Assembly: GCA_001972305.1 (NCBI GenBank)
Contig: BDDD01001498.1
Location: forward strand, 175,802 to 239,801
DNA from: Cephalotus follicularis
Taxonomy: Eukaryota > Streptophyta > Magnoliopsida > Oxalidales > Cephalotaceae
DNA: 64,000 bases
Direction of reading: 5' to 3'
Part shown: in pieces, positions 11,240 through 61,836 of the stretch
Layout of the letters: each line of letters starts with the position of its first letter
Numbering within the stretch: position 1 is the first letter of the stretch
Program-made: the position numbers and the translations under genes
The notes under the pieces: generated by a model
What the model was told of the DNA's origin: nothing
The model's input: only the letters and a program-made list of their open reading frames with translations
Database searches by the model: none

Positions 11240-11552
11240 ACGACGTTTAGAGACATCCAATTGACGTTCAATCATAAAGTCAATGATCAACATTAAAGTT
11301 CGACGTGGTGAAATTACTTTTTGGCAGAGAATTTTTAAGAAAAACGGCGACGCTTTTGATCAATAAAGACGGCGTGCTGGGAATAATCAAGAACAATTCG
11401 ACGTGTGGAGCAATTAAGGTGACATTTTGGAAATTTGTAAGAACAAGGCGATGTCCAGACAAATAACAACGATGTTTTTGGTGGTCAAAGCAAGAATCAG
11501 AAGTCAATGGTTAGCATTAAGTCGACGTTTTACCCTATTAAGTCGACGTCCG
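11240..11552 (+). repeat. Degenerate GACGT/GTCGAC array in copia H LTR
   Basis: At least ten GACGT, GTCGAC or decayed variants are scattered over about 310 bp. Several neighbours are 18-21 bp apart (GACGT at 11242 and 11263; GTCGAC at 11521 and 11542). Confidence 0.6.
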
Positions 11553-12070
11553 TAAGCTTGTTTCTAGTTAATGGCCAGTTGATAAAGAGCAACAAATTTG
11601 AGATTTTCATACACCCTCCTAACGGTTACAAGATTTATTTTTCAACTATACAAAGGCATTCCCAGACATATTGTAGCATCAAACAACAAGGAAAAACATC
11701 TAATCAAAATATTCAAGATTTCTCTGAAGTCTTTCTCCCAAAATACCCTAGTCACTTAAAAGAGCGTCAAACTTTTATCTTGTAATATGAGAGACATAAG
11801 TGAGCTTTAGTTTACATACCTGACGCACTGTATGGTCTCTTACTTTGTGAAATGGTACTGAAATCTTCTAAGTTGTAATCAAGAGTGGTGTACTCTTGAA
11901 AGTATCTAGGTGTGAGGTTGCTTAGTGATAAGGCGAATCCCTGAAGTTTAAAGGTGTTTCGATTTTAACCCGGAACTCAAATTGAGATTTGTATTTGGGA
12001 GGAATACAAGTGAAATACTCAAGGGGGAGCCCTAGGGAGTGGACGTAAGCAAAGAGATTCATCGAGCCAC

Positions 12071-12078
12071 TATAAATA
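12071..12078 (+). promoter_or_regulatory. TATA box of copia H LTR
   Basis: TATAAATA lies about 200 bp upstream of the LTR end, a normal place for an LTR promoter. Confidence 0.6.
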
Positions 12079-12272
12079 GTGTTTGCATCTCTCAATCCTT
12101 AATCTCTTTTAATTTTTCTATTTGTGTGATTGATAGATGCTTGTTTAATCTTCTTTATACACTAGTTTAATTTCTTTGTACTTATTCATCATCTTGGTTT
12201 ATTTTGTTAAAATTGAAAAAGTAGAGATATCCATAGAATATACAATTCACCCCCTCTTGTATATTCTCTCAA

Positions 12273-12288
12273 TTGGTATCATAGCTGG
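12273..12288 (+). other. Primer binding site of copia H (tRNA-iMet, mutated)
   Basis: TTGGTATCATAGC differs by one base from TGGTATCAGAGC and sits directly after the LTR end. Confidence 0.75.
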
Positions 12289-12327
12289 TATCTCGTTATT
12301 CATAATTGTTAGAGATAAAAGATCTAT

Positions 12328-13214
12328 GGCATCCATCATTTGTCGTGAAAGTCAATCCCTCTATAGTCCCCTTACTTTGATGGTGAAAACTATAGTTATT
12401 GGAAAGTTAGAATGATTATTTTTATTCAAGCTTTGAACTATTGTGAGATAATTATGGATGTACCTAATATGCCTACTACTATAGTTGACGGCAAAGTTTT
12501 GCCAAAACTTAAAAATGAGTACAATGTTTTTTATTAGAAGAAATTGCAATTGAATGGTCGTGCGATGCATATTTTTTATTGTACTTTAGGCCATAATGAG
12601 TTTAATAGAATATATTCTTGTGTTTCGATTGAAGAAATATGGAATAGACTTGAGAGTACACATGAGGATACTAATCAAGTCAAAGATGCTAGAATTGATA
12701 TGCTTATTCATAAATATGAATTATTTGAAATGAAAAATTATGAATCTATTGATTATATGTTTGCTAGATTTATCAATAGTATAAATTTGCTAAATTCTCT
12801 TGGTAAATCATTTTCTAAAATGAGCTTGTGAGAAAAATCCTTAGGTCCTTGCCTAAATCTTGGCAAGACAAAGTGACCCCTATTGAAGAAGCAAAGGACC
12901 TCACCGAACTTGCATTGGAAGAACTTCTTGGGTCACTCCTCACATATGAGCTTGCAATGTGGATGATGGAACATGGAAATGAAGAGATGATTGTGTTCAA
13001 ATCATCAATAAAAGAAAAGAGTGATGAAGAAGAAGTTAGCAAAGAATGGAGAAATATGTATGAATTTAGCTCTGATAATGAAAAAGTTGCAAATTTTTGC
13101 ACGATGGCAATAGAAGAAGGACTAAATAATGAGGTACATAAATTTTCTCATGCTTATAATGAATCTTATAAATTAGTAATTGGTTATGGAGTTAAATGGT
13201 TAAATCCCAATTAA
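12328..13214 (+). pseudogene. gag: Copia gag (UBN2 type), broken
   Basis: The gag would form the virus-like particle that packages the element RNA. After an ATG at 12328 the reading crosses frames. ENYSYWKVRM near 12385-12415 is the N-terminal tryptophan motif. LNGRAMHIFY, EEIWNRLESTHEDTNQVKDA and KYELFEMKNYESIDYMFARF follow in the open frame 12544-12831. RKILRSLPKSW and LTELALEELLGSL follow in the frame 12828-13214. This is the domain order of copia UBN2 gag. Defects are a frameshift near 12375, an in-frame TAG near 12537 and a frameshift near 12828. Similarity ends near 13214 and no protease or pol follows, so the element is truncated. Confidence 0.85.
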
Positions 13215-13737: not shown

Positions 13738-14149
13738 TGTCACACCCCGTTTCTATAACAACAATAGGTCATGGCAATCGACATATATCCAGCTTATTGC
13801 AATTTACGAATAAATTGAAACCTTTCAAAACATAATATCTTGCAGAAGCACATGAATCATAAGCTGAAACCACACGTATCATCACGTATCATGCATCACA
13901 TACTACATGATACTAGCATTTTCATCTTATAACCATTGTCAAAAGCCCTCAAACGGAGCGTGATCTGATATTCGATCAGTTACATTAAAACACCAATACA
14001 GTAATCTCAAAAGTAAACATTTCTCAAAGTAAATACAACATAAGGACAATTCATTATTACAACAACTAATTTAAACATTCCTCGGAGGAAAACACAATTT
14101 AAACTTCACTTCGCTACCCCAAGCCCAACGGTGACAATCCACTGCATCA

Positions 14150-14196
14150 ACCTGAAATGTAGGGGGTTAGCCTTTGTCCTCACTCGGCTAAGTAGA
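14150..14196 (-). promoter_or_regulatory. Branch-point / splice-acceptor-like module, B1
   Basis: On the minus strand, ACTTAGCCGAGTGAGGACAA, then AGGCTAACCCCCTA and ATTTCAG. It is nearly identical to the modules of E (31258) and B2 (58550). Confidence 0.5.
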
Positions 14197-14273
14197 GAAT
14201 ATATAATGCACTTCGGGACTTAATGATAATGAATGGCATGAAATGAATGCACCATGATGCAATACACAATGTG

Positions 14274-14307
<34 letters not shown>

Positions 14308-14489
14308 CGTATATATGTATATGTGCCAAAAGGTACGACCATGCCAAGCGGCTATAACCATACAAACTATCAATCAGGTCACTAAGGACTCATCAATCCA
14401 GTCAATCATGTCACAGAGGACAAATCAATGACTCAGTCAATCAATCATCAGTCGATCAGTCATGCCACAAAGGAAAACACTCCAAACGG

Positions 14490-15170
14490 GGATGCTTCCA
14501 CTCTGTGTTTAGCACCCGATCACTTCCACTCTGTGTTTAGCACCCGATCACTTCCACTCTGTGTTTAGCAACCCGGTTACTTCCGCTCTGCGTTTAGTAA
14601 CAGCCACAATAATCAATCAGTCACATCGGACAAACAATCCATTCATCATGTCACATCAGACAAACAATCCATTCAGGGATGCTTCCACTCTGTGTCCGAT
14701 TACTTTCGCCCTGTGTTTAGTAACCACCGAATGTGGGAGTCCCTAGCTACTTCCACTCTGTGTTTATTAGCCAGGTTACTTCCGTTCTGTGTTTAGTAAC
14801 TAATGCGGAATTCTCATCACAATCCATCAATCAATCAATCCAGTCAAACAATCCATTACAGTCGAACATGTCACAACGGACAAACAATCCAATAATCAGG
14901 TCACTAAGACCCATCAATCCAATTCAAGTTACTTACACAACAGTGCTTAGCAACCGGTTACTTACACAACAGTGCTTAGTAACCAACAGGGAGTCCTTGG
15001 ATACTTACTCAACAGAGCTTAGTAACCATTGTATGGGAAACCCTAGCTACTTACTCAATAGAGCTTAGTAGCTACCGTATATGGAATCTCCGGCTACTTC
15101 CTCAACAAAGCTTAGTAGTGGAATTCCTGACTACTTACTCAACAAAGCTTAGCAGCCAACCATAATCAAT
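14490..15170. repeat. Tandem hairpin array in B1 LTR
   Basis: About twelve units of 26-30 nt are visible. Each is able to fold: GGTTACT...AGTAACC at 14956-14984, AGCTACT...AGTAGCT at 15045-15073, GTTACT...AGTAAC near 14575 and 14774. The loop is either TCCACTCTGTGTTT or TACTCAACAGAGCTT in type, and each holds an inner three-base stem (CAC/GTG, CGC/GCG or CTC/GAG). Stem bases change in pairs between units. Related units occur in B2 and B3. I know of no named element with this structure. Confidence 0.75.
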
Positions 15171-15233
15171 CAATCCATTACAAGTAATTATTAACAAATA
15201 TAATACTTGTAAACCATACATTTCCAAATGTAC

Positions 15234-17643
15234 TGTTGGAACCCGAGAGGGGTCCCGATTGATTTTGGGTCTAGGATGCAAGTGTGTTTAATTTAATTTT
15301 TCAAAAACACCAAGACTGCTAGTCAAGGTTCACAATTACATCTTCCTACCAAAATCTATGCTCCTAGGATCTCCGTTTAATATTCAATCGAACAAACAAA
15401 ATAGTCAAGCATACATCCACTTAATCGAAACCCATTCGGTAAACATTATAAACATAAGATTAGGAACCATACCAACGTTGGCGGCTCCATCACTTTGTCG
15501 CTACACGCTTACCGAAGCAACTGCTGGTTACCGGCTCCACTGCCAGTTTTCGGCAGTTCCACGAAAACTTCAACCAAGACACAAACGGACTCCAAAAAAT
15601 CTGCTCACCTCGTTTCTGGAGGAGACGCGCTGGGAAGTACCCCGGAAGGCGGCGAACAGCGGCGGTGACTCACTGAGTTGGACTCAGTGCAACTCGGTCA
15701 ATGCGTCATTGACCGGTGGTGACATATTTGAACGGCAACACCCTAACAAACGCACTAGTGGCTGAGACTCACCGTGACTCGGGCTGAGACGCCAAGTCAC
15801 GGCACACAGTGAATAGACTCGGCAGAGTCGACTCAGAACAACAATCCGGCCACAAAACGAATGGAAAACGCCAGGAAAAGCCTAATCTAAGGTCAATGTG
15901 GGTAGAGCCAAAGCTTGGCTCCACCTACGGTGACTGTCGGCGGCGGAAGAGGCGCCGACAGTGGGAGACGCGTAAAGCGTCGGGCCAAACCAGAGAGAGA
16001 AGAAAAAAACGGGAGAGAAAAAGAGAGAGGCTTACCGTGGATGAAAGCCGACCTCTTTCCCTGGCCACCGACGTCGCTGCGTCATCTTCTACGGCTGGAT
16101 CGCACGCCTGGTGCGAAACGCACGAGACCCGTGCGTTTTCTCTCACCATTTTTTGTGCCCCACGTGAAAGTGGCGTGAGAAATTGGCAAAAACTAAACAT
16201 AATGCCAATTTTGACTTAGTCAAAATCCCAAAATCTCTTTCTGTATTATCTTAACATATAACATAAGTATCTCTCTGGTTTAAAGTATGTGCCCCACACA
16301 TCGTATATTAAACATACTCCCACTGTGGTTTCTCTTAATATATCAATTTGACAATACGGTGGTAAATTTAAATAAATAAATAAACCACTAATGTCAAATT
16401 AATATATACTAGTTTAAAAACTAGATTTCCTACCAAGTTAGCATGTGTGTAGCATGCATCACTTTTCCAATAATCAGGTGGGACCCGAAAGCCCGGTTTG
16501 AATCCGGTACGACTATCCCAATAGTCCCCGACTATTAAAACAGCCCCGGTGTGAATCCCATCACCCCCCGGATCTGTAGAATTAACTACGTCTATAAGTC
16601 GACATCCGGTTAAACCAGTACTTTATCCAGTCAACGGCATATGTGTCATGTATCCTACGTCATACTTGGCTTCGACCGTGACCTAGGGTTCGGAATAATG
16701 TCACCCCTAGGTAAAGTCGCAATAACTATAAATTTACGTATGCATTGAGACTTTCGGCAAACCTCCCCGGAAACCCCGTTTCCAGTCTGCGTATACCTGA
16801 TCAGGGTTTTATGAGTCTCAACGGACATAAATAATATAGAGCCGATCACCCTTCATACGGGTGTGACGATCCCTTATTGCGAACTCGCCCATACATCTCA
16901 ATGAAGCTCCCACAAGGCCCAAAGACAACCCTTTTGCCTACACATGGCTAGTGCTGTGCAAGGTGGAAATCAAAGCCAAGCAGTTACAACACAATGCATG
17001 CCAGCCGCTCAGGTCTAACGATACAACGTAGCTCCACGAATGGTCTACTAGTCACCATAGACTATACACTACCGAGACAATAGGAATCCTATTGACATAG
17101 GTATGACTTTCCAAATAGGTTTCCTATGGTGGGTATGTTCTGTCTCATGCTCCATAGCACGAACCCCGTATTATGCTTTAGGATAAATACAAATGGTAAT
17201 GAGATGGTCCATCCTCCACATACCCCGGGAGCAAGCATAATACGACAAGTCTTTACGTTTCAACAATTGCCCTAAGAAAGTGAACCTATGACTTGGAACA
17301 TTCTGTTAGAAGGGAGTAAGGATCTCATTCTCATAACCGCTCAGGCATGAGATCCAACCCCTCGTACGATAGGGCACTATATGTGTACTCGGATGACATG
17401 GTGATCACCCGATCCATTTAAGATTTTTTGGGATATACGTATAGGGGGTTGCCATTGTTGATTGAATATGCACTATAAAACACAAAAAGGAATTCAAATT
17501 GTATAAATAGAGAGTGTAATATACACACATGCAGCCGGCCCGCGGCTTAAAGAGATATCTCTAGTTAAGGAGTGCATCTCATACATACATATATATTTAT
17601 GCAGAGCCACTTTGTGGCATGCAGGGACACCCCTACTCTAACA
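15234..17643 (-). repeat. Copia G 3' LTR (2410 bp)
   Basis: TGTTGGAACCC...CTCTAACA. Compared with the 5' LTR it retains about 520 bp (roughly 16753-17271) and about 75 bp (near 17465-17545) that the other copy lacks. At 2.4 kb it is long for a copia LTR. The frames at 15358-16219 are not genes: they lie in the GC-richer LTR leader that is repeated, with changes, at 23030-23776. Confidence 0.93.
16028..16045 (-). promoter_or_regulatory. Splice-donor-like site, copia G 3' LTR
   Basis: On the minus strand CCACG|GTAAGCCTC is followed by a long CT run. The same site lies at 23588-23600 in the 5' LTR. GTAAG matches the plant donor consensus. Compare gypsy A (1257) and B (26314). Confidence 0.4.
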
Positions 17644-17656
17644 ATCTCCCCCTTGG
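17644..17656 (-). other. Polypurine tract of copia G
   Basis: On the minus strand GGCCAAGGGGGAGAT abuts the 3' LTR. Confidence 0.8.
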
Positions 17657-17689
17657 CCCTCAAGCCACGAAGACCTTTAGCCTAAGCCA

Positions 17690-17970
17690 ATCGCACTTCC
17701 GCTGTCACTTAAGTACTACTAATGCTCATGGCATTGGTCAGTGGGTTTGGCAAAATTTGCTCAGGTCAAAAATCTCTCTAGGATAATGTTTCCTCTGTAT
17801 ACGATATCAAGAATCATATAATATAATGATAGCGTTGCTTTATGTTTAGAAAGGTAATGAGACATGGGTTCCATAGCCTGTGCAAAGGCCCCCTATCGTC
17901 GTATCTCTACACAACCGGATGAACGATAGATGGAACTACATAAAGTTCCACAGTGAACTTCTGCTACCAA
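17690..17970 (-). pseudogene. Copia G RNase H C-terminal relic
   Basis: Minus-strand frames read AQAMEPMSHYLSKHKATL near 17870-17930 and LPNPLTNAMSI near 17730. These match copia RNase H tails (AI.QAKEP..H.RSKHI and NIADPLTKPL). Several stops and frame changes are present. The order, just before the purine tract, is correct for copia. Confidence 0.65.
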
Positions 17971-18669
17971 ACAGCAACTTTTCGGTATCATAGGCTATAA
18001 CATACTCTTATTCATGGTTGAGTCAACAGTATCCCACTGTTGTAGACTCCTCCAACTCACACAGCACCTTCGTTTAGGACAATCACTTATCTTGAACCGA
18101 TGTCATGATCATCTAGATCACAGATGAAATCAGAGTCAACAGAACTCTTATTCAATTCACTGTCTTCTCAAGAAGAAATTATGAGTCACTCTCAGATCTC
18201 TTTGACAATTCCCAGTGCCTCTCACAGGGATTGGACTGATAATCGACTAGCCAGACCCTTAGGCTTGTATGATGTCAGGCCTAGTACTAAGTATGATATT
18301 GCATGATGTAACTTTTAGCCGAAGCTTAAGGTAGCCCACTCATGCAACACTTTCCTCTGATGTCTCTTTCAACATCCTCTTGGAAAGATGAATTCCTTGG
18401 CTAATTGGCAGTAAGCCAAACGTGGAATTCAAAAGTCCATACTATATCAGCACCCTGCTGATGTACTGGCTTTGGGAAAGTCAAAACAACCTACTTGATC
18501 TACTCTTAAGATCTTCATTCTCAAAACGTAGGAAGTCTCTCCCAAATCCTTTTGGAGAAGTTCTTGGTTAATTATACTATAACATACCTACAGCATTACC
18601 AATGGGTAGAATTTTATCTATGTATATTACCAAGAAAGTGATATCTGGGATATACTATTTCCGGTAGAC
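17971..18669 (-). pseudogene. Copia G RT-RNase H connection, decayed
   Basis: By position this should encode the rest of RT and the start of RNase H. I find no continuous frame and no clear YVDD motif, so it is annotated by context only. Confidence 0.4.
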
Positions 18670-18927
18670 TTAAGGCATAGCATCGTTTTTGATAAAATCA
18701 AAAACAGATGTTTCAGCTACGGGATGCTTGATAAGGTCATACACAAACCTTAGGAGCTTGCACACACTCTGTGCTAATGTTCCTTGGATGTAAACCCCTC
18801 GGATTTGGGACATTAAGATGTCCCCTTCAAAATAGTCCTTTTTCAAGGTCATCTTGACATCCTTTGGCCATTTGTTATATCCATAACGAGTGGAAATTAC
18901 AAGCATTATCCGAATGGACTTAATCAT
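18670..18927 (-). pseudogene. pol: Copia G reverse transcriptase relic
   Basis: The frame contains KSIRIMLVISTRYGY, KWPKDVKMTLKK, ILMSQIRGVYIQG and SVCKLLRFVYDLIKHP. These line up with the copia RT core KSIR.LLAIAA.YDYEIWQMDVKTAFLNG...VYM.QPEGF...KVCKLKKSIYGLKQA. The catalytic aspartate region QMDVKTAF has changed to PKDVKMTL, with the aspartate kept. The frame is about 85 codons, a fragment of the roughly 250-residue domain, and the rest is out of frame. It would have copied element RNA into DNA. Confidence 0.8.
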
Positions 18928-19578
18928 TACGATTTAAAGGTTTTAACCTTTTCCATTAACTCCTATCTTCCTCTTGAAGATATATATGCAACCATTGGGC
19001 AACCTGCCTATGGGATCATTAACCAAGTTCCATACTCGGATGACATATATGGCGTCCATTTCAGATTTCATGACTCCCAGCCATGCCTAGAAAACAGTGC
19101 TCTTCACTATTTCCTTTGTAGCTGACAGGCTCGTCATCATCAATGACTTTAGGTTTATCAGTGCCTATTGCGAGAAAACCATATTTCTTAGACGCTGTTA
19201 AAGCCTTGCCTGATCTCCTCTCACGAGGAGTGCCTTAATGAGATCCCTTCTCAGGTTGGGATCCTTTCCCAAATCTTGTCTTTAGAGGGTTCCATCTCTA
19301 ATTCCTCATCGTCCTGTGGGCTTTCACAAGATAATAACTCACTTAGGTATACTTTACTCCTACTGATTCCTGTAAACAGGTATTCCCCTTTGGTATTTTA
19401 CAGTACACAAAACAAATATCATTTGTTTGCTAGGATGGTTGAAATGAAATCCTAAGCACTTATTAGGATATCCCACAAAATCGGCAACGATCCGCTCGCG
19501 CCTCCAGCTTAGAAGGTTTTCGCCTTCTTATATAAGCCGGACAGACATTAACCCTCTTGGTTTAGGCTGGGTTTCCTC

Positions 19579-19938
19579 CTATTTAATATCTTGAAAGATA
19601 TGGAGGGGATGGATTTCATAGGAATCCGGATTAGGATCTACGCTACCACTGCAACACATAATCCCAGAAGGAGATAAGAAGATGAATAAAAGACATAATG
19701 GATTTGACATATTCACGAATGTCAATTCCCTCCGTTTGGATACATCATCACAGTATGGTGTTCCAGAAGGGATCCATTGAGAGAGAATTCCGTTATCTCT
19801 CAAATAACCCAAGAATTTTGCAGACAGGTATTCGCTTCCCCGATCAGAGCGTAATGCTCTAATGGGTTTACCTGTTTGCATTTCTACTTCATGTCTAAAT
19901 GCCTTAACACTTTCAAGGGATTCAGATTTGTGTTTCAC
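19579..19938 (-). pseudogene. pol: Copia G integrase core relic
   Basis: The first 70 codons read FRHEVEMQTGKPIRALRSDR, then GSEYLSAKFLGYLRDNGIL, SQWIPSGTP and VSKRR. This is the second half of the copia integrase core (LRSDRGGEYLS.EF...L.E.GI.SQLTPPGTPQ.NGVSERRNRTL). The aspartate of SDRG is present. The glutamate of the D,D-35-E triad has become K in VSKRR. After that the frame runs into unrelated residues until a second match, SYEIHPLHIFQDIK, near its end. It lies upstream of RT in the sense direction, as in copia. Confidence 0.85.
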
Positions 19939-20589
19939 CCGAAACGCTTACCGAAACCATGACGAATCACTGGTGAAGGTAATGAAGTAGTGAAAACCTT
20001 CACGTGCATTGTCTGACATTATACTACAAATATCAATATGGATATATTACAATATGTCCATTACATTCTCTCCATACTTGGAGAAAAGAGATTTGGTCAT
20101 TACACCAATCAAACATGATGTACACGTTGGAAGGGACTCCTCGTCCTAGATGTTCAAAAGTCCATCATTAACCAAGCGTGTTTATCTAGCCTCGCTAGAA
20201 TGACCTAATAAACAATGCAAAAGGTTATGAAGGATTTATATCAAATTTCTCTTGTAGTCTTTTATTATTAATTCATTGCTCAATAGCTGGTGCTATTGTT
20301 TGATTAGTATTTAAGACTTAAAACCCATTATCTTGTTAATCAGTACCAACTGATACACAACCAGAAAATAATAGCCATAATCCTCATGTAATAAACAAAA
20401 AGCTCCTAGCTTTACAAAATATACATTAGAATTTGCTAATCAAAGTTTAGAACAAAAGTTCTTTACAATGTTTACAAGAGTTTAGTCTATATACAAAAGC
20501 CACATTGCTTTATATATACAAATCAAAATATCCTACAACATAAAAGTAGATCCCCGATCTTCATGTCATAGGTACATTGCATCCTCAGC

Positions 20590-20780
20590 TCCCAGCTGCC
20601 TAGCTCCTCTTAGCATCCTGCAAAGAGTTAAAAATATTAGTCTCACAACCTGAGTCCAAAAACCCAAATTGAACTTACATTGTAAGCTAAGTGGAATATG
20701 AAAAATATGACGGTACCTAACCCCGAGGCACCATATGCAATGGAAGCAAGAAATTGTGTGCAATTTCTCTTCCAATATCC
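20590..20780 (-). pseudogene. pol: Copia G zinc knuckle and aspartic protease relic
   Basis: On the minus strand CFHC near 20735-20750 begins a degenerate gag knuckle. About 90 bp downstream FLDSGCETNIFNSLQD spans the protease active site, the DSG motif. A stop follows in the same frame. The protease would have cut the gag-pol polyprotein. Confidence 0.65.
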
Positions 20781-20981
20781 TGACTTCCCACACAGAAGCA
20801 AGATATCTCCTTAATAAGCTTTTTAATCCTCTAATGGATGGTATCCTCAAACCACGTGAAGCGGTTCCTTTTCTTTCTTCCTTATGGGCTCATTGCCCTT
20901 CGAACTGGATCTTCTTGATCCACCACTCCTTGAGGTTGTTCCAGAAGAATGAATAGGTATCACAGATTGTTTTGATCCATA

Positions 20982-21248
20982 CTAGTCCAAAACTACCTTA
21001 TCAGTCCTCGACTGTGTGCCAAACAACTCCTCAAGTTGTATCAACAGGGCATATAAGGTCTGTGAAGAAATACATAGCGTTTTCCAGTTTGGTATCAAGG
21101 CAACACTCGCCATGTATTGAGGTCTATGATCGTCGTCCCACCACTTAGCCACCCCGGCCTTGTGATGGTCAGATGCATTGATCTCTAATGTGGGGGCTAT
21201 CTCAGTCATAACATGAACAACTCTCATGCTCGTGAGTATAATGCGCAA
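20982..21248 (-). pseudogene. gag: Copia G gag relic
   Basis: The frame carries WWDDDHRPQYMASVALI, then LCISSQTLYALLIQLEELFG and TQSRTDKV. These match copia gag (WW.DD..A..YMLAS.....TA.EI...L.ELFG.QSR). It is a short central piece of gag and upstream and downstream parts are frame-shifted. Confidence 0.75.
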
Positions 21249-21259
21249 CCATTCAAAAA

Positions 21260-22770
21260 ATGTGGATTATATCGCTTAAAGAAATATAAAACATGCCAAA
21301 TATCTGTGTTGTCTACCATTTGAGTGTATATAATATGTTATCTAACAACCTATTAGAAGAAACAAGAGAGTAATTTAGCAGATCATTCAATTTCATGTTA
21401 TTACCATCATTCTTGGTCTTTAGTAATTATGGCTCCTCCCACTATTCTAATAGTATCCCACACCTCCATGTGGAATTCGGGAAGTACCCGCCTCCTAGTG
21501 GGGATTGGAATCTATTTCGCATATTATGGTCTCCGCTGGGGGCAGGACAAACCATAATACCAAATAGGTAGGCTTTAAAGGCCAATTTACATTTGGGCCT
21601 CGCCCTTGTAATGCAAGATCCGATACATCATTCGGCCTCCCGATCCATACAATCCACCGCTATGGCGGCGCTAATAGCATGAACTCAGTATAAGTCTGTA
21701 CCCACAACCCTCAAAGAAATGAACCAGTTTTGATATCCACTAGGAGGCTAGTCAGAACACCAAAACTTAGTTATTTCCTTCCAGTCACAACACTAAAATT
21801 TAGTAGAAATGGTCATATGGGGGACCTCTGCTGAGGCAGTGCTATCCCCAATATATCCATACTAGTAAATGAAGGCGTGGAAGGCCAACGATGGAGCACC
21901 CTTGTGCCCCACTCCTTATGGACTTATTATTTCACAATTGGAGGAATTTGTGGTCTCATCAAATTTTAAATTACCAAAGCCGTTTATTAAATCAATTTTA
22001 ATCTTCCAATTCATTTGGAACGGCTTATTATGCTTGACGTGTTTGGATTGTTTGCAAAAAGTAAACATCCATCTCATGCATCCTATGATCCACATAGAAA
22101 TAAAAATGGCCTGGCTAGGGATTAAAACTAAGAGCGATCACATGAGCGTATGTGATCACTCGGTCTCCTAGGCGAACTATTTAAAACTACTTTATTACAA
22201 AATGCACCATGCATACATGGCCTTCACTTGGTCTTGCATTTTCCTTGATCTCCCTCTACATGCTCCTTTGCGATTCTTCTCTTCTTTTATTTACAAAAAT
22301 GAAATTTTAACAAATACATTTAAAAAAATAAAGAATAGAATACAAATGGAGGGAGAGAGAGAATTACACAAAAAAAGGAAAAATGGTGCTCGCAGGCAAC
22401 CATATTACAGACCAAATAAAGTACATGATAATAAAGCAATTTAAACCATCCACAAAAGAAACCAAAAGCTAGGTTCAATCCCATTACCTACCATCATGCA
22501 TAAGACATTTAAATCTATATCCACAATAGAAATAAATAAACACAAGCAATTTCAATTTCCGATGACCAGTCGAAATAATTCTAAGATTGCCGGTATTCCA
22601 ATAAAACTCCCACTAAATTATTTAAAATCTAGTTTCCCTCGGTTTAAGAAAAACTTAATTTTATAAAACAACAATGAGAAGGGAATTAAATTAGAATCTC
22701 AGCTGCTTTAATCATTCCAAAATAGTCACCAAAAAGCAAAATCGAAGTCCAATTGATATTAAAACGGATC
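21260..22770 (-). other. Copia G long untranslated leader
   Basis: About 1.5 kb between primer site and gag without a usable frame. It is repeated, with moderate divergence and on the plus strand, at 39341-40710. This confirms it belongs to the element and is not a separate insertion. Confidence 0.75.
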
Positions 22771-22783
22771 GCTCTGATACCAC
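22771..22783 (-). other. Primer binding site of copia G (tRNA-iMet)
   Basis: The minus strand reads TGGTATCAGAGC next to the 5' LTR boundary. Confidence 0.92.
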
Positions 22784-22784
22784 T

Positions 22785-24657
22785 TGTTGGAACCCGGGAG
22801 GGGTTCCGATTGATTTTGGGTCTAGGATGCAAGTGTGTATAATTTTAATTTTTCAAAAACACCAAGACTGTAAGTCAAGGTTCACAATTACATCTTACTA
22901 CCAAAATCTATGCGCCTAGGATCTCCGTTTAATATTCAATCGAACAAATAAAACAGTCAAGCATACATCCACTTAACCGAAACCAATTCGGTAAACATTA
23001 AAAACATAAGATTAGGAACCATACCAACGTTGGCGGCTCCATCACTTTGCCGATACACGCTTGCCGAAGCAACTGCCAATTACCGGCTCCACTGTCGGTT
23101 TCCGGCCAGTCCACGAAAACTTCAACCAAGACACCAACGGACTCCAAAAAATCTGCTCAGCTCGTTTATGGAGGAGACGCGCCGGAAGCGCCCCGGAAGG
23201 CGGCGAACAGCGGCGGTGACTCACTGAGTTCAGACTCAGTGCAACTCGATCAACACGTCATTGACTGACGGTGACATATGTGAATAGCAACACCCCAACA
23301 AACACACTGGTGGCTGAGACTCGCCGTGACTCGGGCTGAAACGCCAAGTCACGGCACATAGTGAGTCCACTTGGCAGAGTCGACTCAGAACAACGCATCC
23401 GGCCACAAAATGAACGGAAAATGCCGGGAAAAGCCTAATCTAAGGTCAAGGTGGGTAGAGCCAAAGCTTGGCTCCACCTACGGTGACTGTCGGCGGCGGA
23501 AGAGGCGCCGACAGTGGGAGTCGCGTAAAGCGTTGGGCCAAACCAGAGAGAGATAGAAGAGAAAAACAAGAGAGAAAGAGAGAGAGGCTTACCGTGGATG
23601 AAATCCGACCTCTTTCCCCGGCCACCGACGTCACCGTGTCATCTTCTCCAGCCGGATCGCATGCCTGGTGCGAAACGCACGAGACCCGTGCGTTTTCTCT
23701 CACCATTTTTTGCTCCCCGCGTGAAAGTGGCGTGAGAAATTGGCAAAAACTAAACATAATGCCAATTTTGACTTAGTCAAAATCCCAAAATCTCTTTCTC
23801 TATTATATTAACATATAACATAAGTATCTCTCTAGTTTAAAGTATGTGCCCCACATATCGTATGTTAAACATACTTCCACTGTGGTTTCTCTTAATATAT
23901 CAATTTGACAATATGGTGGTAAATTTAAATAAATAAATAAACCACTAATGTCAAATTAATATATACTAGTTTAAAAACTAGATTTCCCGCCAAGTTAGCA
24001 TGTGTGTATCATGCATCACTTTTCCAATAATCAGGTGGGACCCGAAAGCCCTGTTAGAATCCGGTACGACTATAAATTTCCCAGAACATCCCAGTAGTTC
24101 TAGTACAACTATCCCAATAGTCCCCGACTATTAAAACAGCCCCGGTGTGAATCCCATCACCCCCCGGATCCGTAGAATTAACTACGTCTATAAGTCGACA
24201 TTTGGTTAAACCAGTACTTTATCCAATCAAAGGCATATGTGTTATGTATCCTATGTCATACTTGGCTCGGACTACGACCTAGGGTTCAGAATAATGTCAC
24301 CCCTAGGTAAAGTCGCGATAACTATAAATTTACGTACGCATTGAGACTATTTTCTTTAAGAAAGTGAACCTATGACTTGGAACGTGCCGTCAGAAGGGAG
24401 TAAGGATCTCATTCTCATAACCTCTCAGGCATGAGATCCAAGCCCTCGTACGACAGGGCACTATATGTGTACTCGGATGACATGGTGATCACCCGATCCA
24501 TTTAAGATGGTTTGGGATATACATATAGGGGGTTGCCATTGTTGATTGAATCCCCGCGGCTTAAAGAGATATCTCCAGTTAAGGAGTGCATCTCATACAT
24601 ACATATATATTTATGCAGAGCCACTTCATGGAATGCAGGGACACCCCTACTCTAACA
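22785..24657 (-). repeat. Copia G 5' LTR (1873 bp, internally deleted)
   Basis: Begins TGTTGGAACCCGGGAGG and ends CTCTAACA. It lacks about 520 bp and about 75 bp present in the 3' LTR, and carries a short insertion near 24072-24110. These changes arose after insertion or by recombination. Confidence 0.93.
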
Positions 24658-25129
24658 TGTACATCAGTCCTTTTACAACGGTTCACAGCCTTGGCTACTT
24701 ACTCAACAGAGCTTAGTACTCATCAAAGTCTTTCAATCCATTTCAAGTAATTTATAAGTATAAACACTTGAAAATATATAAATATTTACTCAATATATAT
24801 AACATTCCTTTTTCAATCCTTTTCAAGTAAATTCAATGTATCATAAAATACTTGAAAGCAATACATTTCAAAATGTAAAACCAGCCATTCGAGCCACATT
24901 CAAATACACGAAATACTCATTTTCGCATAACAATTTCTCAATTCCTTGAAACTGTTTTCACAATCCTTTTGGAAAACATTACATTTCCACATAATAATGA
25001 TTTTATTAAACCATTTACATACTTCCCAAAAAAGAGGAAACAATTTAGAAATCAGGTGATAACTCAATCAGCAATCCAACTCACAATTGTATGCAATGCA
25101 AACATATGCTCAAAATGTAACCGGCCTCT

Positions 25130-25390
25130 ATTCGCGTCAACATCTCATCCCTTCGGCGTAGACGCTCAAGGCATGGACCATTAAGCGTCAGCATTTATTC
25201 CCTTGGCGTCGACGCTTTGAGGTAGGAACCTCAGGCGTCAGCGCTACACGCGTCCATTCACACACAACGAATCATGGCGTCGATGTTTTCTTTAATTGTT
25301 GATCTTTACCGCAAAAACAGAACTCATTCTCCGTATAACGGTCCATAGCATCGACGCTACTTTCCTAAGCGTCGACGGTTAAGCGAACCA
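25130..25390. repeat. GCGTCGACG array, B1 LTR
   Basis: About ten degenerate copies of GCGTCGACG. Starts include 25134, 25156, 25185, 25206, 25235, 25250 and 25277, with spacings mostly near 21 or 28-29 bp. Variants show CpG decay (GCGTCAACA, GCGTAGACG). B2 carries the same array at 60070-60300. Confidence 0.75.
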
Positions 25391-46639: not shown

Positions 46640-46800
46640 CGTCCTCGAATTTAAATCTTTACATACCAAATAAATGAGGGAATGTCTCCATCATTACAAT
46701 CTCATGTTCCCATGTAGCTTCTTCTGCTCCGCGAAACTGCTATAGAACCTTCACTGTAGGAATGGTCTTGGTTCTCAAAACTTCCTCCTTCACTGATAAA
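46640..46800 (-). pseudogene. C-B chromodomain relic
   Basis: In a frame different from the integrase frame the minus strand reads RTKTIPTVKVL, stop, QFRGAEEATWEHE. This is the last part of a Tekay-type chromodomain (compare [20 protein letters not shown] at 54874). The key tryptophan is replaced by a stop (TAG). A frameshift near 46790 separates it from the integrase. Confidence 0.8.
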
Positions 46801-48087: not shown

Positions 48088-48429
48088 GAATGGATTCCAT
48101 CTCTGAAAATCCTCCAGTAGTTTCCACTATGAAACCATCGCAACAACATTCATTGCTCTGTGACTCAAGGCATCCGCAAAAACATTCGCCTTCCCTGGAT
48201 GGTATTGAATATTATAGTTATAATCACTAAAGAATTCAACCCACCTTCTCAGTCTCATATTCAACACCTTCTAAGAAAATAAGTACTTCAGGCTTTTGTG
48301 GTCGGTGAATATCTCAAATTGAGCACCATAGAGGTAATGTCTCCATTTCTGTAAACAAAACACTATGGCAGCTAATTCAAGATCATGTACAGGATAGTTC
48401 TCCTCATACGGTTTCAATTTCCTTGAAGC
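48088..48429 (-). pseudogene. pol: C-B RNase H
   Basis: Successive pieces read [69 protein letters not shown] and [17 protein letters not shown], in the RNase H order of gypsy pol. Stops fall near 48427, 48272 and 48128; the middle one replaces a glutamine codon. Confidence 0.9.
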
Positions 48430-49295
48430 TTAAGCAATTACTCGACCACGTTGCATGAGAACACATCCCAAGCCTTTCCCATAAGCATCGTTGTAAACTG
48501 TAAGGTCTTCATTACCTTCAGGTAATGCTAAAACAGGAGCCAAAATCAACCGACTCTTCAGTTCCTGAAAACTCGCTTCACAATTGTCATCCAAATCAAA
48601 ATTTGACTTCTTCTGAGTCAATCGAGTCAACGGAATAGCAATCTTGGAAAATCCTTCAATAAATCTCTGGAAATAGCCATCCAATCTCAAGAAGCTACGA
48701 ACCTCAATAACATTCTTCGGTTGTGGCCAATTGACAATACTCTCAATCTTTGAAGGATCAACAGATAACCCTTTACTAGATACAATATGACCAAGGAAAC
48801 TCACATGATCTAACCAAAATTCACACTTACTGAATTTAGTAAATAACCGTTCCTTACGTAGAGTTTGCAACACAATCCTCAGATGCTGCATATGCTCCTC
48901 AATACTCTTCGAATATATCAGTATGTCATCTAAGAAGATCACAACAAACCGATCCAGATAGGGTTGGAATACCCGGTTCATTAAACACATGAATGCTACA
49001 GGGGCATTCGTCAAACCAAATGGTAATATCAGGAACTCATAGTATCCATATCTGGTTCAAAAAGTAGTATTCTCAACATCACCCTTGCGAATCCTCAACT
49101 GATGGTAATATGTCCTCAAGTCAAGTTTAGAGAACACGGTTGAGCCTTGAAGTTGATTGAACAACTCTTCAATGTGTGGAAGAGATATTTGTTCTTTACA
49201 GTCACTTGATTCAACAACCGATAGTCAATGCATAACCTCATCGACCCATCCTTCTTCTTTGCAAACAGTACCGGTGCTCCCCACGGTGATACACT
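48430..49295 (-). pseudogene. pol: C-B reverse transcriptase
   Basis: Reads [29 protein letters not shown], then after a frameshift near 49180 [20 protein letters not shown] and YHQLRIRKGDVENTTF. After an in-frame TGA near 49050 follow [20 protein letters not shown], then [14 protein letters not shown]. The catalytic FLDD (equivalent of YxDD) is intact at residues 27-30 of the open frame 48430-49014. Downstream are [20 protein letters not shown] and [22 protein letters not shown] copies the RNA genome. Confidence 0.93.
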
Positions 49296-50018
49296 TTATC
49301 TGATAAATCCCTTATCAAGATAGTCTTGCAGTTGAACCTTTAACTCCTTCAGTTCAACAGGAGCCATTCTGTTTGGAGCTTTAGAAATAGGAGCAGTTCC
49401 TGGTATCAAGTCAATATTGAACTCTATATCTCTCTCCGGAGGCAATGAAACAAGATCTGCATGAAACACATCAGGAAATTCACATACAACACGAATCTGT
49501 TCCAGACTAGGCATACCTTTCATTTCATCCAGAACATATGCCAAGTAACCTTCACACCCTTTCTCGATATATTTATTCGCTCGAGCAAAAGAAACAACCG
49601 GAGTAGAAGTATTCATCTCTCTGACGAATTGGAATACAGTTCCATCTAACAGATGAAAAGTCAACACCTTATTGTAAGAATCAACACAAGCTCGATGAAC
49701 ATAGAGCCAGTCCATCCCCAAGATAATATCAAAATCTCGGATCGACAGTACAATCAGATCAACAAATAGCTGAACCCCAGCTATCATGATCTCACAGTTA
49801 TCCACTATTGTATCAGTCAGTAAGGAATCACCAGTTGGAGTATTCACCTCCAGCACATATGGTAAGCAAGAAGTCACACAATGCAAGTTACACAGAAAAT
49901 ATGATGCAATGAATGAGTGTGTAGCTCCCGGATCAATCAATACGTGAGCTAATATACAAGATATGAAAATGTTACCTCCCACAATAGAAGTAGACTCTGG
50001 TATGTCATCCTTAGACAA
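49296..50018 (-). pseudogene. pol: C-B aspartic protease and start of RT
   Basis: The frame has HVLIDPGATHSFIA at residues 25-38, the retropepsin active site, and IILGMDWL at 98-105, a second family motif. The canonical D-S/T-G is D-P-G here, which should weaken or abolish activity. The end, PVELKELKVQLQDYLDKGFI, is the usual approach to RT, then a stop (TAA near 49293). The frame is continuous with gag apart from one TGA near 50024, so gag and pol were one polyprotein. Confidence 0.92.
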
Positions 50019-50027
50019 AGTATAGAC

Positions 50028-51121
50028 TCAACCTTTCACAATTTCCTTTCCAGTATCTCTTCGTAGTTGAGCAGCCGCACCACTTCCACTAGCTCCAGCA
50101 CTTCCTTGTTGATTGCGAATTTTCTCTCTAACGGTTGGACAATCTTTTAACTGATGCTCATGCAAGCCACATATCAAACACTTCCCCATCTTCTTCTGGC
50201 AAACACTGTCATTATGGTTTGAAAGACCGCATAAATTACACCCTCCAGAACTCTGTCGGCTACTTCGGTTAGGAGTCCTTGAACGAGAAGTATTTAGTCG
50301 AGAACCTCCTTGTCCCTTATTATCAGACTTCGATGATCCAGCGGGATTATTACTTCCCTGCCCTTGTGAATAAGTAGGTCTCAATTGAGAACCACGAGAT
50401 CTCTCCATCCTCCGTTCATTTGCATCAACCTCCAAAATGCTTGCCTTCTGAGTAGCATCCATAAAAGAAGTCAATTGCAGTACAACCAGTTTAGATATGA
50501 TTCCAGGCAAGAACCTCCTTATGTTCCTTGACTCTCCCTCCACTAGATATGGCGTGTGCCTTGCCAGCTCAATGAATATGGTCTGATATTGAGCTACTGT
50601 CATATCTCATTGACATAACTCCAGCAGTTCAGTCTCCCTCGTGTCACGTTCCATGTATGGTACATAAGTCTCAAAGAACTCGGACTGGAATCTGTCCTAA
50701 GGCCTATCAAGATCTAGAGATACCCACTTCGCTTCAATCATCTCCCACCAATGGGTAGCTTCTCTCCATAAGCAGTCCACTACAAAATTCAGCTTTTGTT
50801 AGCAAATATTTTCTCCATATCCTTCATCCATTGTTCAGCTACGGTAGCATCAAGTTCACCCTTGAACATCGGAGGATTCTGCCTCATGAATCTCTCCAAA
50901 TCTCTCCCAAATCCACCAGCATGATAAACTTCAAGAGCATGCTGATAGGCTTGGTTAGCTTCATACATGTGCTACAACTCAGCCATATTTGCCGCATTGG
51001 CATGCATAGGTTGTTCAAAAAGATCCGCCATGTGATCTAATGCACTTCTTTCTTCTTTCACTGGTGGGGAATTTCTTTCTTCGGCCCTAGGCCTTCCCTG
51101 TTGACCTCTTCGGCGATGCAT
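50028..51121 (-). pseudogene. gag: C-B gag with two zinc knuckles
   Basis: The likely original start is the Met at 51121 (MHRRRGQQGRPRAEERN); an in-frame Met lies upstream at 51169. The retrotransposon gag core, NPPMFKGELDATVAEQWMKD MEKIF in two parts, lies near 50820-50890. The continuous 3' frame 50028-50603 starts in the core and ends with two CX2CX4HX4C knuckles at residues 122-135 and 142-155, which bind RNA. Stops (TAG near 50972 and others between 50600 and 50810) and frame changes break the N-terminal half. Two knuckles in tandem are more than the usual single one of chromovirus gag. Confidence 0.92.
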
Positions 51122-53049: not shown

Positions 53050-53800
53050 TATATATTTCAATCCATACATGTATCGACGCTAACTGGCACAAGGTGAGGT
53101 AGCTCGATCAATCCACAGTAATATGCAATCAAACATATGCTCAAAATGTGACAGACCCTTTTGGCGTTAACACCTAGCTCTAGGCATCAACGTGTATGGC
53201 ACCTTGTGCTCCAAAACGTAATTAGTCTCTTTTGGCGTCAATGTATACCCTATACGTGTCAACGTTTATAGCATTTCTCTTAGGCGCCAACATCCACCCA
53301 AGGCATTAACATGCATGGCAACCACCTCAGGCGTCAACATTCGCTCTAGGAATCAATACAAACCCTAGGTGTCAACGTACATGTCTCCCACACATTAACG
53401 TTAAGTCAGGAGCCCTAGGCGTTAACGTCTATCCCTTTCGTGTCGACGCGTTAAGGTAGGAACCTTAAGCATCAGAGCCTTTCTCCTTGGCGTCAACGTT
53501 ACCTTATGGTGTTGACGTTCATAATAGCCCTCCTGGGCGGAAACGTATATTCTAGGAGTCAACATGCATGGCAACCCCCTCAGGCGCCAACATTCGCTCT
53601 AGGTCAACACAAGTTCTAGGTGTCAACTTCGATAGCACACTAGGTCTACGACAGACACTGGGGCGTCAACGTGTTGCCTCTTGGCATCGATGCACTAAGG
53701 TAAGGAACCTTAGGCACCAACGCATCATGCATCTTTTTATCATATAAAAGACCAAGGCGTTGACGTGCACTTTAGGCGTCAATGTTTGTGAGGCCATAAC
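53050..53800. repeat. Decayed GTCGACG array, B3
   Basis: Roughly 25 sites such as GCGTTAACA, GCATCAACG, GTGTCAACG and GCGTCAACG. Many steps are 19-21 or about 28 bp. Most central CG pairs have become CA or TA/TG. Confidence 0.7.
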
Positions 53801-58549: not shown

Positions 58550-58594
58550 CCTGAAATGTTGGGGGTTAGCCTTTGTCCTCAATCGGCTAAGTAG
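58550..58594 (-). promoter_or_regulatory. Branch-point / splice-acceptor-like module, B2
   Basis: Same as B1: ACTTAGCCGATTGAGGACAA, then AGGCTAACCCCCAA and ATTTCAG on the minus strand. Confidence 0.5.
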
Positions 58595-58844
58595 AGAAAA
58601 TATAATGCACTTCGAGACTCAATGATAATGAATGACATGAAATGAATGCACCATGATGCAATACACAATGTGTATATACATATATATATGTACGTATATA
58701 TGTATATGTGCCAAAAGGTACGACCATGCCAAGCGGCTATAACCATACAAACTATCAATCAGGCCACTAAAGACCCATCAATCCAGACAATCATGTCACA
58801 GAGGACAAATCAATGACTCAGCCAATCAATAATCAGCCGATCAG

Positions 58845-59660
58845 TCATTTCCACTCTGTGTTTAGCAACCTGGTTACTTCCGCTCTGCGTTTAGTAACCG
58901 CCACAATAATCAATCAGTCACATCAGACAAACAATCTATCAATCATGTCACATCGGACAAACAATCCATTCATCATAACACATCAGACAAACAATCCATT
59001 CAGGGATGCTTCCACTCTATGTTTAGCACCCGGTCACTTCCACTATGTGTTTAGTAACCCAGTTACTTTCGCTCTGCGTTTAGTAACCGCCGAATGTGGG
59101 AGTTCCTAGCTACTTCCACTCTGTGTTTAGTAGCCCGGTTACTTCCGCTCTGTGTTTAGTAACAAATGCGGAATTCCCATCACAATCCATCAATCAACCA
59201 ATCTAGTCAAACAATCCATTACAGTCGAACATGTCACAACGGACAAACAATCCGATAATTAGATCACTAAGACCTATCAATCCAATTCAAGTTGCTTACA
59301 CAACAGTTCTTAGCAACCGGTTACTTACACAACAGTGATTAGTAACCAACAGGGAGTCCTTGGATACTAACTCAACAGAGCTTAGTAACCATCGTATGGG
59401 AAACCCTAGCTACTTACTCAACAGAGCTTAGTAGCTATCGTATATCGAATCTTCAGCTACTTACTCAACAGAGCTTAGTAGTGGAATTCCTGACTACTTA
59501 CTCAACAGAGCTTAGCAGCCAACCACAATCAATCAATCCATTACAAGTAATTATTAACAAATATAATACTTGTAAACCATACATTTCCAAATGTACATCA
59601 GTCCTTTTAAAACAGTTCAAAGTCTTGGCTACTTACTCAACAGAGCTTAGTAGTCATCAA
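58845..59660. repeat. Hairpin array, B2
   Basis: About twelve units. GGTTACT...AGTAACC (58872-58899) carries an inner CGC/GCG stem. GTTGCT...AGCAAC is at 59291-59317. GGTTACT...AGTAACC units and AGCTACT...AGTAGCT follow. Confidence 0.78.
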
Positions 59661-60069
59661 AGTCTTTCAATCCATTTCAAGTATTTTATAAGTATAAACA
59701 CTTGAAAACATATAAATATTTACTCAATATATATAACATTCCTTTTTCAATCCTTTTCAAGTAAATTCAATGTATCATAAAATACTTGAAAGCAATACAT
59801 TTCAAAATGTAAAACCAGCCATTCGAACCACATTCAAATACACGAAAATACTCATTTTCGCATAATAGTTTCTCAATCCCTTGAAACCATTTTCACAATC
59901 CTTTTGGAAACCATGACATTTCCACATAACAATGATTTTATTAAACCATTTACATACTTCCCAAAAAAGAGGAAACAATTTAGAAATTAGGTGATAACTC
60001 AATCAGCAATCCAACTCACAATTGTATGCAATTCACACATATGCTCAAAGTGCAACCAGGCTCTATTAG

Positions 60070-60300
60070 TGTCAACATCTCATCCCTTCGGCGTCGACGC
60101 TCAAGGCATGGACCATTAAGCGATAGCGCTTATTCCCTTGGCGTCGGCACTTTGAGGTAGGAACCTCAGGCGTCAACGCTACAAGTGTCCATTCACACAC
60201 AACGAATCATAGCGTCGACGTTTATCGCAAAAACATAGCTCATTCTCCGTATAACAGTCCATAGCATCGACGCTTCTTTCCTAAGAGTCGACGGTTAAGC
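60070..60300. repeat. GCGTCGACG array, B2
   Basis: Orthologous to the array at 25130-25390. Some sites are better preserved here (GCGTCGACGCT near 60089) and others worse. Confidence 0.75.
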
Positions 60301-61715
60301 GAACCAAAACATGGCTCCTTCAACACTTCTCAAGACCAAGAGAATTCAAAGCATACAACACATGGAATCCGATCCCCAATCATTGTAAAATACAATATGC
60401 ATGGCAGGTAACTATTCCTAGTAACCCTAACAGAGTCACACAATTCACAATCCATGCATTTCATCAAATGAACACTCATGACAATTGAACTCAAAGTTGC
60501 AACCATATAACCCCTACAAATACCCCAACCTCTGATTCCAAGTTAGGAATCGCAGTAGCAACAGCACAGTCAAGCCGCAGGTTCAATTGTCGAACCTTTC
60601 CCAATAACCGTTGAACCGAATCTGGTTCTTGTCGATTGATCAGTTCCTCACTGCCAAATCCAATTGCCACTCACACACTGTACATACAACACATTTCATT
60701 ACGCTTAACACATAGAAACCAACACAGCCATCAACGGAGCTCCGGCCAAAATCCGACCAACTCACCCAGCTTGTGCAACACTCATAAACATGTTCCACAT
60801 TGGACAATCTGCACAGAACCACTCAAGACCCACCGTGACTCAGCGCTGAACGTCGTGTCACCGGCGACAGTGAGTTGCGACTCACTGAGTCAACTCGCCG
60901 GACCTCAACAGGTCCGATCGCCACCCAAAAATGCCACATTACCAAAAGATCAACACATCCCTACCCTAGACTCACCAAGAATCGGTGCCAAACGGGCGGT
61001 CTCAGGCGGCAACGATTCGAGCTCGCTGTGTCGACTTAGTCGACACATCCCGGCCAATTCCGGTCGAGAAACGCCTCAACAGTGGTAGAAATGGATAGAG
61101 CGGGCCTTCTAGATGAAAACCCCCTCCATCCCTGACCCTAACGGCATCGGAAAAAGCACGGTGGAGGTGCAAACAATGGCAGGGAAGAAGAGAAGAAAAG
61201 TGAAAAGAGAAGACAGGGGAAGAGGTTACCGTTGGTAGGCGTGCCTGGGTTGCTCGCCGTCCTCTCCCGGTCAGGTGGCTAGTTCCGGCGTCGTCTCCGG
61301 CGCCCTCTCTCCCTTTCTGTCCCTGGTTCTCTCTCGCTGTCTCTCTCTATCTCACGCGTCTCCTGCCTCTTTCTTTTGCACGGGTGCGTGTGCCTGTGTC
61401 TCTCTTTCTTCCTCCCTTTCTTTTCCTTTGTTTGTCTTTTCTCCTTTCTTGATTGGTATATACCAATAAAATATTAAGGCCTGGGTCCCGTTTTTTTTCC
61501 CGCGAATTACGATATTCATTATCATAACAGCAACCAAAATAATCGTAATAATAATGCAGACACTGGGCTTTACTGTCACGCATTAAATTAGGCTTTATTA
61601 GCCATTTTTGGGCAACATAATTGCGGCTTCAATATGAAATGCCTTGAACATTTCCTTATCATTCCTATTTGTAGTGCCAGGTCTGGCACGCATATTATGC
61701 TAATAGACCGCATGG

Positions 61716-61836
61716 CAGTCGACTGCCTTCCCCCAACAGTCGACTGCTTCTGCCGATAGTTCTCTCAGCTATTTCTCTTAACAATCGGCTGGTTCTGTTA
61801 AGGCTCCAGTCGACTGTTTCTCCCTACAATCGACTG
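61716..61836. repeat. CAGTCGACTG palindrome array, B2
   Basis: Six sites at 61716, 61737, 61762, 61782, 61807 and 61827, with the same 21, 25, 20, 25, 20 spacing as B1. Confidence 0.8.

Follow-up and report, generated by a model that had tools for sequence, protein, structure and literature searches.

The stretch of DNA analyzed here, referred to as the window, spans 64,000 bases of the Cephalotus follicularis genome (contig BDDD01001498.1, 175802-239801; whole genome, 1,577,397,061 bases) and contains nested long terminal repeat (LTR) retrotransposons of plant type. In the LTRs of several of these elements, the palindromic hexamer GTCGAC and its close variants recur at a step of about 21 bp, and such phased arrays are confirmed to be real and genome-wide. 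They occupy LTRs of both the gypsy and the copia superfamilies, their sites are dyads, and the cores of these dyads hold up better between families than the remaining sequence. The arrays of the window, named after the LTRs that hold them, are as follows:

11239..11547, plus strand: copia1 LTR array, exact sites at 11521 and 11542, a step of 21 bp, with degenerate sites in phase starting at 11239
25136..25376: X1 distal array, GCGTCGACGC type
26802..26918: X1 proximal array, CAGTCGACTG type, at a distance of about 155-270 bp to the LTR end (27073)
32203..32522: L30 distal array, in which GTCGAT/GTCGAC predominate
33303..33446: L30 proximal array, with two exact sites at a 20-bp step
33793..33875: c33 sites, weak, four within one mismatch, in a putative, unproven copia LTR
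36656..36814: L35a array, AGTCGACT type, steps 20, 21, 21, 28, 21, 21, 21 (counting one site with two mismatches), spacers no more alike than by chance
37623..37871: L35b array, flanks of mixed type
41980..42157: G1 distal array, ccttaagCGTCGAC units with similar spacers; its duplicate lies at 45388-45565, next to an N gap
42927..42995: G1 proximal array, four sites at 21-bp steps, one with two mismatches
53237..53764: L51 array, mainly of GTCAAC forms
60071..60292: X2 distal array, a copy of that in X1 by segmental duplication
61718..61834: X2 proximal array

In X, L30, G1, and L017, proximal arrays lie some 155-330 bp away from the start of the LTR (an inferred start in G1 and L017), and distal arrays lie about 1.05-1.9 kb into the LTR (some LTR ends are inferred). 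It should be noted that the site lists and step counts of the arrays include hand-chosen in-phase sites with two mismatches and are therefore biased, whereas the window distances, segment shuffles, 20-stretch counts, and hexamer counts reported below are not.

Phased GTCGAC sites beyond chance

Exact GTCGAC occurs 47 times in the window, and 46 of these copies lie inside LTR or putative-LTR segments, which make up 36,454 of the 64,000 bases (one of the 46 is in the unproven c33). With up to one mismatch allowed (n = 251), distances between sites peak at 21 (19 pairs), 42 (12), and 63 bp (8), against about 2.4 pairs per distance. When pairs at 20-22 bp were compared with 300 dinucleotide shuffles per segment (p floor, 0.003), observed counts exceeded expectation at p 0.003 in the LTRs X1 (3 vs. 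0.09), X2 (4 vs. 0.11), L30 (5 vs. 0.09), and L35 (9 vs. 0.05), and likewise in the G1 3′ LTR (4 vs. 0.02), its duplicate (3 vs. 0.03), and L51 (2 vs. 0.03), which amounts to five distinct LTRs; copia1 follows weakly with a single pair (0.02 expected, p 0.02). Among nine other segments, seven have no such pair, and intCop2 and rest33 have one each (p 0.03 and 0.04). A jitter control, which keeps the clustering and blurs the phase, was passed by X1, X2, L30, L35, and both G1 and its duplicate (p 0.0005 to 0.0165) and failed by L51 (0.09) and copia1 (0.10). In a leave-one-out motif and chain score, no shuffle matched the observed score in any array segment; scrambled motifs did so in 6/300 trials for X, 3/300 for L51, and 1/300 each for L35 and c33, and never for L30, G1, or copia1. 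The chains of copia1 and c33 each consist of one close pair, and the best chain period departs from 21 in X (45-46) and G1 (22). In the motif tables, the chain score, the window flank test, and the pooled spacer figures, the coordinates of the G1 proximal array are one or two bases off.

The same words are in large excess throughout the genome, where CAGTCGACTG has 197,377 copies against 939 of its reversed control word, and GCGTCGACGC has 73,186 against 121. Among the first 100 copies of CAGTCGACTG on contig 1, 37 of the 63 steps of at most 130 bp measure 19-22 bp. A sample was drawn of twenty 10-kb stretches, namely bases 20001-30000 of every 200th contig from contig 3 to contig 3803, which are mostly larger contigs (5,615 N in all). 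No other CpG palindromic hexamer is as common in it as GTCGAC, which has 92 copies against 51 of the next; it forms 25 pairs at 20-22 bp, of which 15 measure exactly 21 bp, spread over 9 of the 20 stretches. When the 4056 hexamers with at least eight copies are ranked by pairs at 20-22 bp over background, AGTCGA, TCGACT, CGACTG, and GTCGAC take the first four places. A simple array rule, applied without a shuffled control, finds 22 arrays in 13 of the 20 stretches; sorted by the similarity of their flanks, these and nine arrays of the window make up nine groups, with the two X2 arrays counted apart. The sequence-only reading that had first noticed GTCGAC arrays at about 21 bp in these LTRs, and had looked to their autocorrelation against shuffled LTRs, is thus upheld by the distance peaks, by the shuffle excess in X1, X2, L30, L35, G1 and its duplicate, and L51 (weakly in copia1), and by the genome-wide excess of the words. 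In the sample, head-to-tail duplications of 99.5-100% identity, possibly assembly artefacts, occur in L014 (3750-5740 / 5742-7732) and L015 (2098-3250 / 3250-4401).

Elements that carry the arrays

The window was mapped by self-comparison, terminal motifs, target-site duplications, and words of the primer-binding site (PBS), with the following result, in which ORF stands for open reading frame and RT for reverse transcriptase:

949-4622 and 7175-10909: LTRs of element A
12538-12828: gag_2 (copia gag) ORF of copia1, Sirevirus-like, downstream of the LTR array; polyC signal at 12249, PBS-like site at 12274
13738..27073, minus strand (orientation from homology to G1): X1 LTR, TGTCACACCC...GGGTGTTACA, apparently solo, split by copia2
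15234-24656, minus strand: copia2, inserted in X1
30873..33634, minus strand (orientation from homology): L30 solo LTR, target-site duplication GACTG
35510..38717: L35 solo LTR, target-site duplication GATTT
40719..43208, minus strand: 3′ LTR of the chromovirus G1, right end inferred from a stretch like a polypurine tract (PPT)
46705..50606, minus strand: G1 coding ORFs (Pfam integrase, RT, and protease), with one further ORF, 50031-50606, without assignment
from 51828: L51 LTR
55942-56902: L55, a short solo LTR of the L35 family
58281-61989: X2 LTR, segmental duplicate of X1

G1 encodes the Pfam domains RVT_1, RVP_2, Integrase_H2C2, and SH3_Tf2-1, and a chromodomain in the element next to it scores below the curated cut-off. 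These domains place the window chromoviruses no further than the chromovirus type; Tekay would be the expected lineage label. X1 and X2 have their flanks in common and are a single insertion that has been duplicated. The segments 41135-43746 and 44547-47153 form a direct duplication of 95% identity beside a gap of 25 N (44522-44546), possibly haplotypes placed in tandem, and the G1 array that appears twice is accordingly counted as one. Contrary to the earlier description of the array-bearing LTR families as unrelated, X, L30, and L51 match one another at about 60-76%, and G1 is linked to this group through short, weak matches; L35 gives no match to the X, L30, L51, or G1 LTRs at the same threshold. 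Given these relationships and the two duplications, the array-bearing gypsy lineages of the window reduce to two or three independent ones rather than four or more. The matches of L55 to L35 skip about 36185-38500 of L35, the section that holds both L35 arrays. Within the internal region of element A, a 5S rRNA-like match (6888-6988) scores 43.9 bits, above the gathering score.

Arrays that can be placed beside pol lie mostly in LTRs of gypsy chromoviruses. Beyond the window, they adjoin G1-pol matches in L014, L017, L021, and L024; the L017 arrays are about 175-225 and 1290-1395 bp from the inferred LTR start. Related arrays (68.6%) in L013 (7959-8335) and L010 (2674-2844) have RT-side matches of gypsy elements on one side and integrase matches on the other, and may represent nested elements at a similar place.

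On the copia side, arrays are weak in the window and firmer elsewhere in the genome. In L025, an array (5061-5351) lies in an LTR that adjoins a truncated copia gag and is related to that of copia1 (65% over 214 bp). Two Sirevirus-like copies have their array between pol and the next ORF: L027 presents, in order, the C-terminus of a copia RNase H (recognized by eye), an array at 4844-5115, an ORF of 468 aa (Pfam Transposase_32), the PPT octamer AGGGGGAG, and a polyC signal, and L023 presents a copia RT match (RVT_2), sites at 1415-1686, and an ORF of the L027 type; the L023 row has steps of 41, 20, 82, 82, and 41 and does not pass the simple array rule. The Transposase_32 ORF stands at the envelope position of these Sirevirus-like elements (L027 5247-6650, L023 3-1271; the two copies are 71% alike), and an array lies upstream of it in both of its sample copies. 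Such features, along with the polyC signal of copia1 and the ATTGG junction at its PBS, are Sirevirus hallmarks and make the copia hosts candidate Sireviruses. Because copia2 carries AGGGGGAGATTG and no array, and a similar purine word stands before the 3′ LTR of element A, this word has no diagnostic value of its own, and arrays are not a universal feature. Hence, the view that arrays are found in gypsy and copia alike holds at the level of the two classes and fails for the copia2 LTRs.

Anatomy, step, and conservation of the units

The GTCGAC core sits in a dyad whose outer bases differ by family (CAG..CTG, GCG..CGC, or AAG..CGT). At offsets 1-4 from the core, the flanks are complementary in 56, 50, 38, and 45 of the 92 exact sample sites, which are related within families and hence not independent, against 40.6, 25.4, 27.4, and 33.7 expected from pooled shuffles. 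The sites are therefore palindromic, as first described, with a symmetry that extends four bases beyond the core on each side in the 20-stretch sample. WRKY, as-1, DRE, and ARF sites match only by halves, and no claim is made for them.

The 21-bp step had been taken to place all sites on one face of the helix. This argument is not supported, given that distances of 31-32 and 52-53 bp, equal to three and five turns, are at background (6.5 and 6.0 per distance vs. 5.8; sample plus window, duplicates masked), while distances of 28-30 bp recur, especially in the pattern 21-28-21. The step consequently reflects a unit length, not a general helical preference. Protein coding was considered as another source of the step, 21 bp being seven codons, and was rejected because steps of 20, 22, 25, 28, and 29 bp break the frame; stop-free frames do overlap several arrays. 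At two 29-bp steps (X, 25208-25242; L30, 32363-32397) and at the corresponding place in L51 (53442 onward), an inverted repeat is found that reads TGAGGT..ACCTCA in X and TAAGGT..ACCTTA in L30 and L51, a paired change.

Conservation was followed in alignments between families (150 columns or more, identity up to 90%), both directions being counted. Core bases are kept in 535 of 575 cases against 20,327 of 25,162 elsewhere, and core CpGs in 84 of 95 against 268 of 468 other CpGs. In 12 family pairs that we chose from these alignments, passing over those that lack exact sites and any further copy of an LTR, exact cores are kept in 44/68 cases, other CpG hexamers in 68/199, and hexamers of any kind in 4823/13,336; cores fare better than other CpG hexamers in 11 of the 12 pairs (odds ratio 5.1, chi-square 24.3, both directions counted). 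After insertion, as seen in seven copy pairs, core bases show no difference (181/192 vs. 25,516/26,918). This is suggestive of cores being better kept in active elements than afterwards, as a cis-acting function in replication would leave. As for the spacers, the claim that they are not conserved stands for L35a and the G1 proximal array, in which adjacent spacers are 0.27 identical against about 0.28 for shuffled letters and cores 0.81 and 0.72 identical, respectively (sites having been selected by core), and falls for the G1 distal array (0.77).

Proposed function and relation to known systems

These patterns lead us to propose, at about even chances, that the arrays are cis-regulatory arrays of binding sites in U3, probably of the enhancer type, for one or a few dimeric host proteins. 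Such a dimer would recognize the dyad around TCGA, with GTCGAC as the core and CAG, GCG, AAG, or ACG as outer half-sites depending on the family; we infer that it is encoded by the host, binds the arrays, and activates transcription. The 21-bp step would then stem from contacts between adjacent dimers or from the duplication unit, and not from helical phase alone. Sites may multiply partly through duplication of 21-bp units, after which spacers would drift while cores are kept in active lineages.

A number of observations weigh against this proposal. No excess of 20-22 bp pairs over shuffles is seen in either LTR of element A, either LTR of copia2, or L55, and no TATA box is conserved in an alignment of three LTRs. 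L30 favours GTCGAT and L51 GTCAAC, so strict palindromy is not required, and flank complementarity in the window is no better than in within-array shuffles, except at offset 10 from the centre (p 0.04); since these shuffles do equally well, the dyad signal of the window amounts to differences between arrays. Regarding conservation, some sequences recur in several family pairs, which are therefore not independent of one another, the pair (6,9) is reversed (cores 2/4 vs. 20/37), and core CpGs still lean upward after insertion (28/32 vs. 526/718), so that the contrast before and after insertion is not clean. Spacers are alike in the G1 distal array and, to a lesser extent, in the L30 distal (0.44), L30 proximal (0.50), and L35b (0.48) arrays, as plain tandem duplication gives.

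This last point touches the idea that the arrays are neutral minisatellites, functionless 21-bp tandem duplications whose phase is a relic of duplication. The spacers of the G1 distal array, the pooled identity of adjacent spacers (0.42 vs. 0.28 shuffled), and the preference of distances for multiples of 21 over 10.5 speak for it; however, L35a and the G1 proximal array retain their cores with spacers at chance, core CpGs outlast other CpGs between families, and one core recurs in LTRs of two superfamilies, and we regard neutrality as improbable. Function at the RNA level, where self-complementary units would fold as hairpins in LTR transcripts and feed or evade small-RNA silencing, appears unlikely too. 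Of six arrays folded, five surpass nearly all of their dinucleotide shuffles (z -6.2, -3.7, -3.6, -3.4, and -3.1), such a role has been argued for maize Sirevirus palindromes, and passages of PMC10760457 link Sirevirus palindrome clusters to small RNAs; yet the G1 distal array folds at z -1.0, with 26 of 200 shuffles equally good, RNA pairing would not demand a fixed 21-bp step, and low z values are expected without any RNA function because any run of palindromes folds well.

An element-encoded protein is a further candidate binder, the arrays being in this case targets of an anti-silencing factor like VANC of VANDAL elements, shared in trans. Arrays of the VANC21 motif likewise evolve by tandem repeat formation, according to passages of PMC5735166, and the Transposase_32 ORF lies directly downstream of the array in L027 and L023; VANC targets are family-specific, whereas GTCGAC arrays span gypsy and copia, and we hold this account to be very improbable. 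Compatible with host binding sites, as it concerns origin and not function, is the possibility that a single repeat block passed from LTRs of one superfamily to those of the other through recombination or template switching, such that sharing between copia and gypsy reflects descent. Copying between superfamilies is possible because L025 (copia) and L30 (gypsy) share a match of 48 columns that spans spacers and scores 29, where 100 spacer shuffles reach 19 at most, although this is the best of 52 array pairs with the choice uncorrected (only the ten best were shuffle-tested, each scoring above 100/100) and the class of two partners in such cross-array matches, L010 and L013, is uncertain. On the other hand, an extended palindrome (AAAGAC..GTCTTT) could make units alike without copying, and flank types differ by family; on balance, copying seems rather doubtful.

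Returning to host-protein binding, a bolder form of it, which we put forward tentatively, is that one host factor serves as a shared regulatory currency of gypsy chromoviruses and copia Sireviruses, through GTCGAC dimer arrays of the same 21-bp step and with units partly traded. One core and one step in both suggest that the superfamilies converge on, or trade, a single host control module. If a factor is so shared, more than a quarter million exact 10-bp sites must shape its binding genome-wide, and with so many possible decoys it would matter for gene regulation too. The roughly 270,000 exact 10-bp copies of the two forms make a binder of such boxes directly testable.

Among known systems, cis-elements of the Tnt1 type differ from the arrays in having two or three repeats in tandem. 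Tnt1 box I and the short tandem LTR cis-elements described in passages of PMC2829016 are similar in being repeated or dyad cis-elements within an LTR. VANDAL21/VANC21 resembles the arrays in that a short motif is multiplied as tandem repeats in non-coding element DNA, and differs in its word (YAGTATTAY), its uniform orientation, its element-encoded binder, and its restriction to one DNA-transposon family, as given in passages of PMC5735166; this confinement has no match in arrays found in both gypsy and copia. Palindromes in maize Sirevirus LTRs (Bousios et al. 2016, via passages of PMC10760457) also cluster in the cis-regulatory region of the LTR, but their word is CACCGGACNNNGTCCGGTG and they occur in copia and also in Helitrons.

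The closest relatives are the RM boxes, palindromic repeated-motif boxes in Sirevirus LTRs and upstream of ENV (Bousios et al. 2010, PMC2829016). In the passages of that paper searched, they are called Sirevirus-specific, are absent from the classic copia elements compared, and have no known binder; their core is CGG-CCG in 12 of 13 boxes, Tnd-1 being without it. The Vitis box CGGTCGACCG contains GTCGAC, and the L027/L023 arrays before the ORF at the envelope position and the L025 array in the LTR follow the same layout (PMC2829016). Differences lie in the core, GTCGAC here and not CGG-CCG, in the step, 21 bp here with no fixed step in those passages, and in the hosts, since the gypsy arrays are not in Ty1/copia elements, as the G1 domains and the G1-pol matches beside arrays indicate. 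The statement that no named element has this design is thus wrong in part, because RM boxes share it and cover the copia arrays; for gypsy LTRs, no report of such arrays appears among the open-licence literature matches listed, judged by titles and abstract openings. The apparently new part is the same array design in LTRs of gypsy chromoviruses. The RM cluster starts 200-400 bp into the LTR (PMC2829016), compared with about 155-330 bp for the gypsy proximal and 1.05-1.9 kb for the distal arrays. Finally, RM boxes define CpG islands in the passages of PMC2829016. In the window, the CpG observed/expected ratios of LTRs (0.67-0.96), array-free ones included, mostly exceed those of internal and other segments (0.45-0.74); LTRs with phased sites have 0.67-0.84, and array-free LTRs reach 0.81-0.96.

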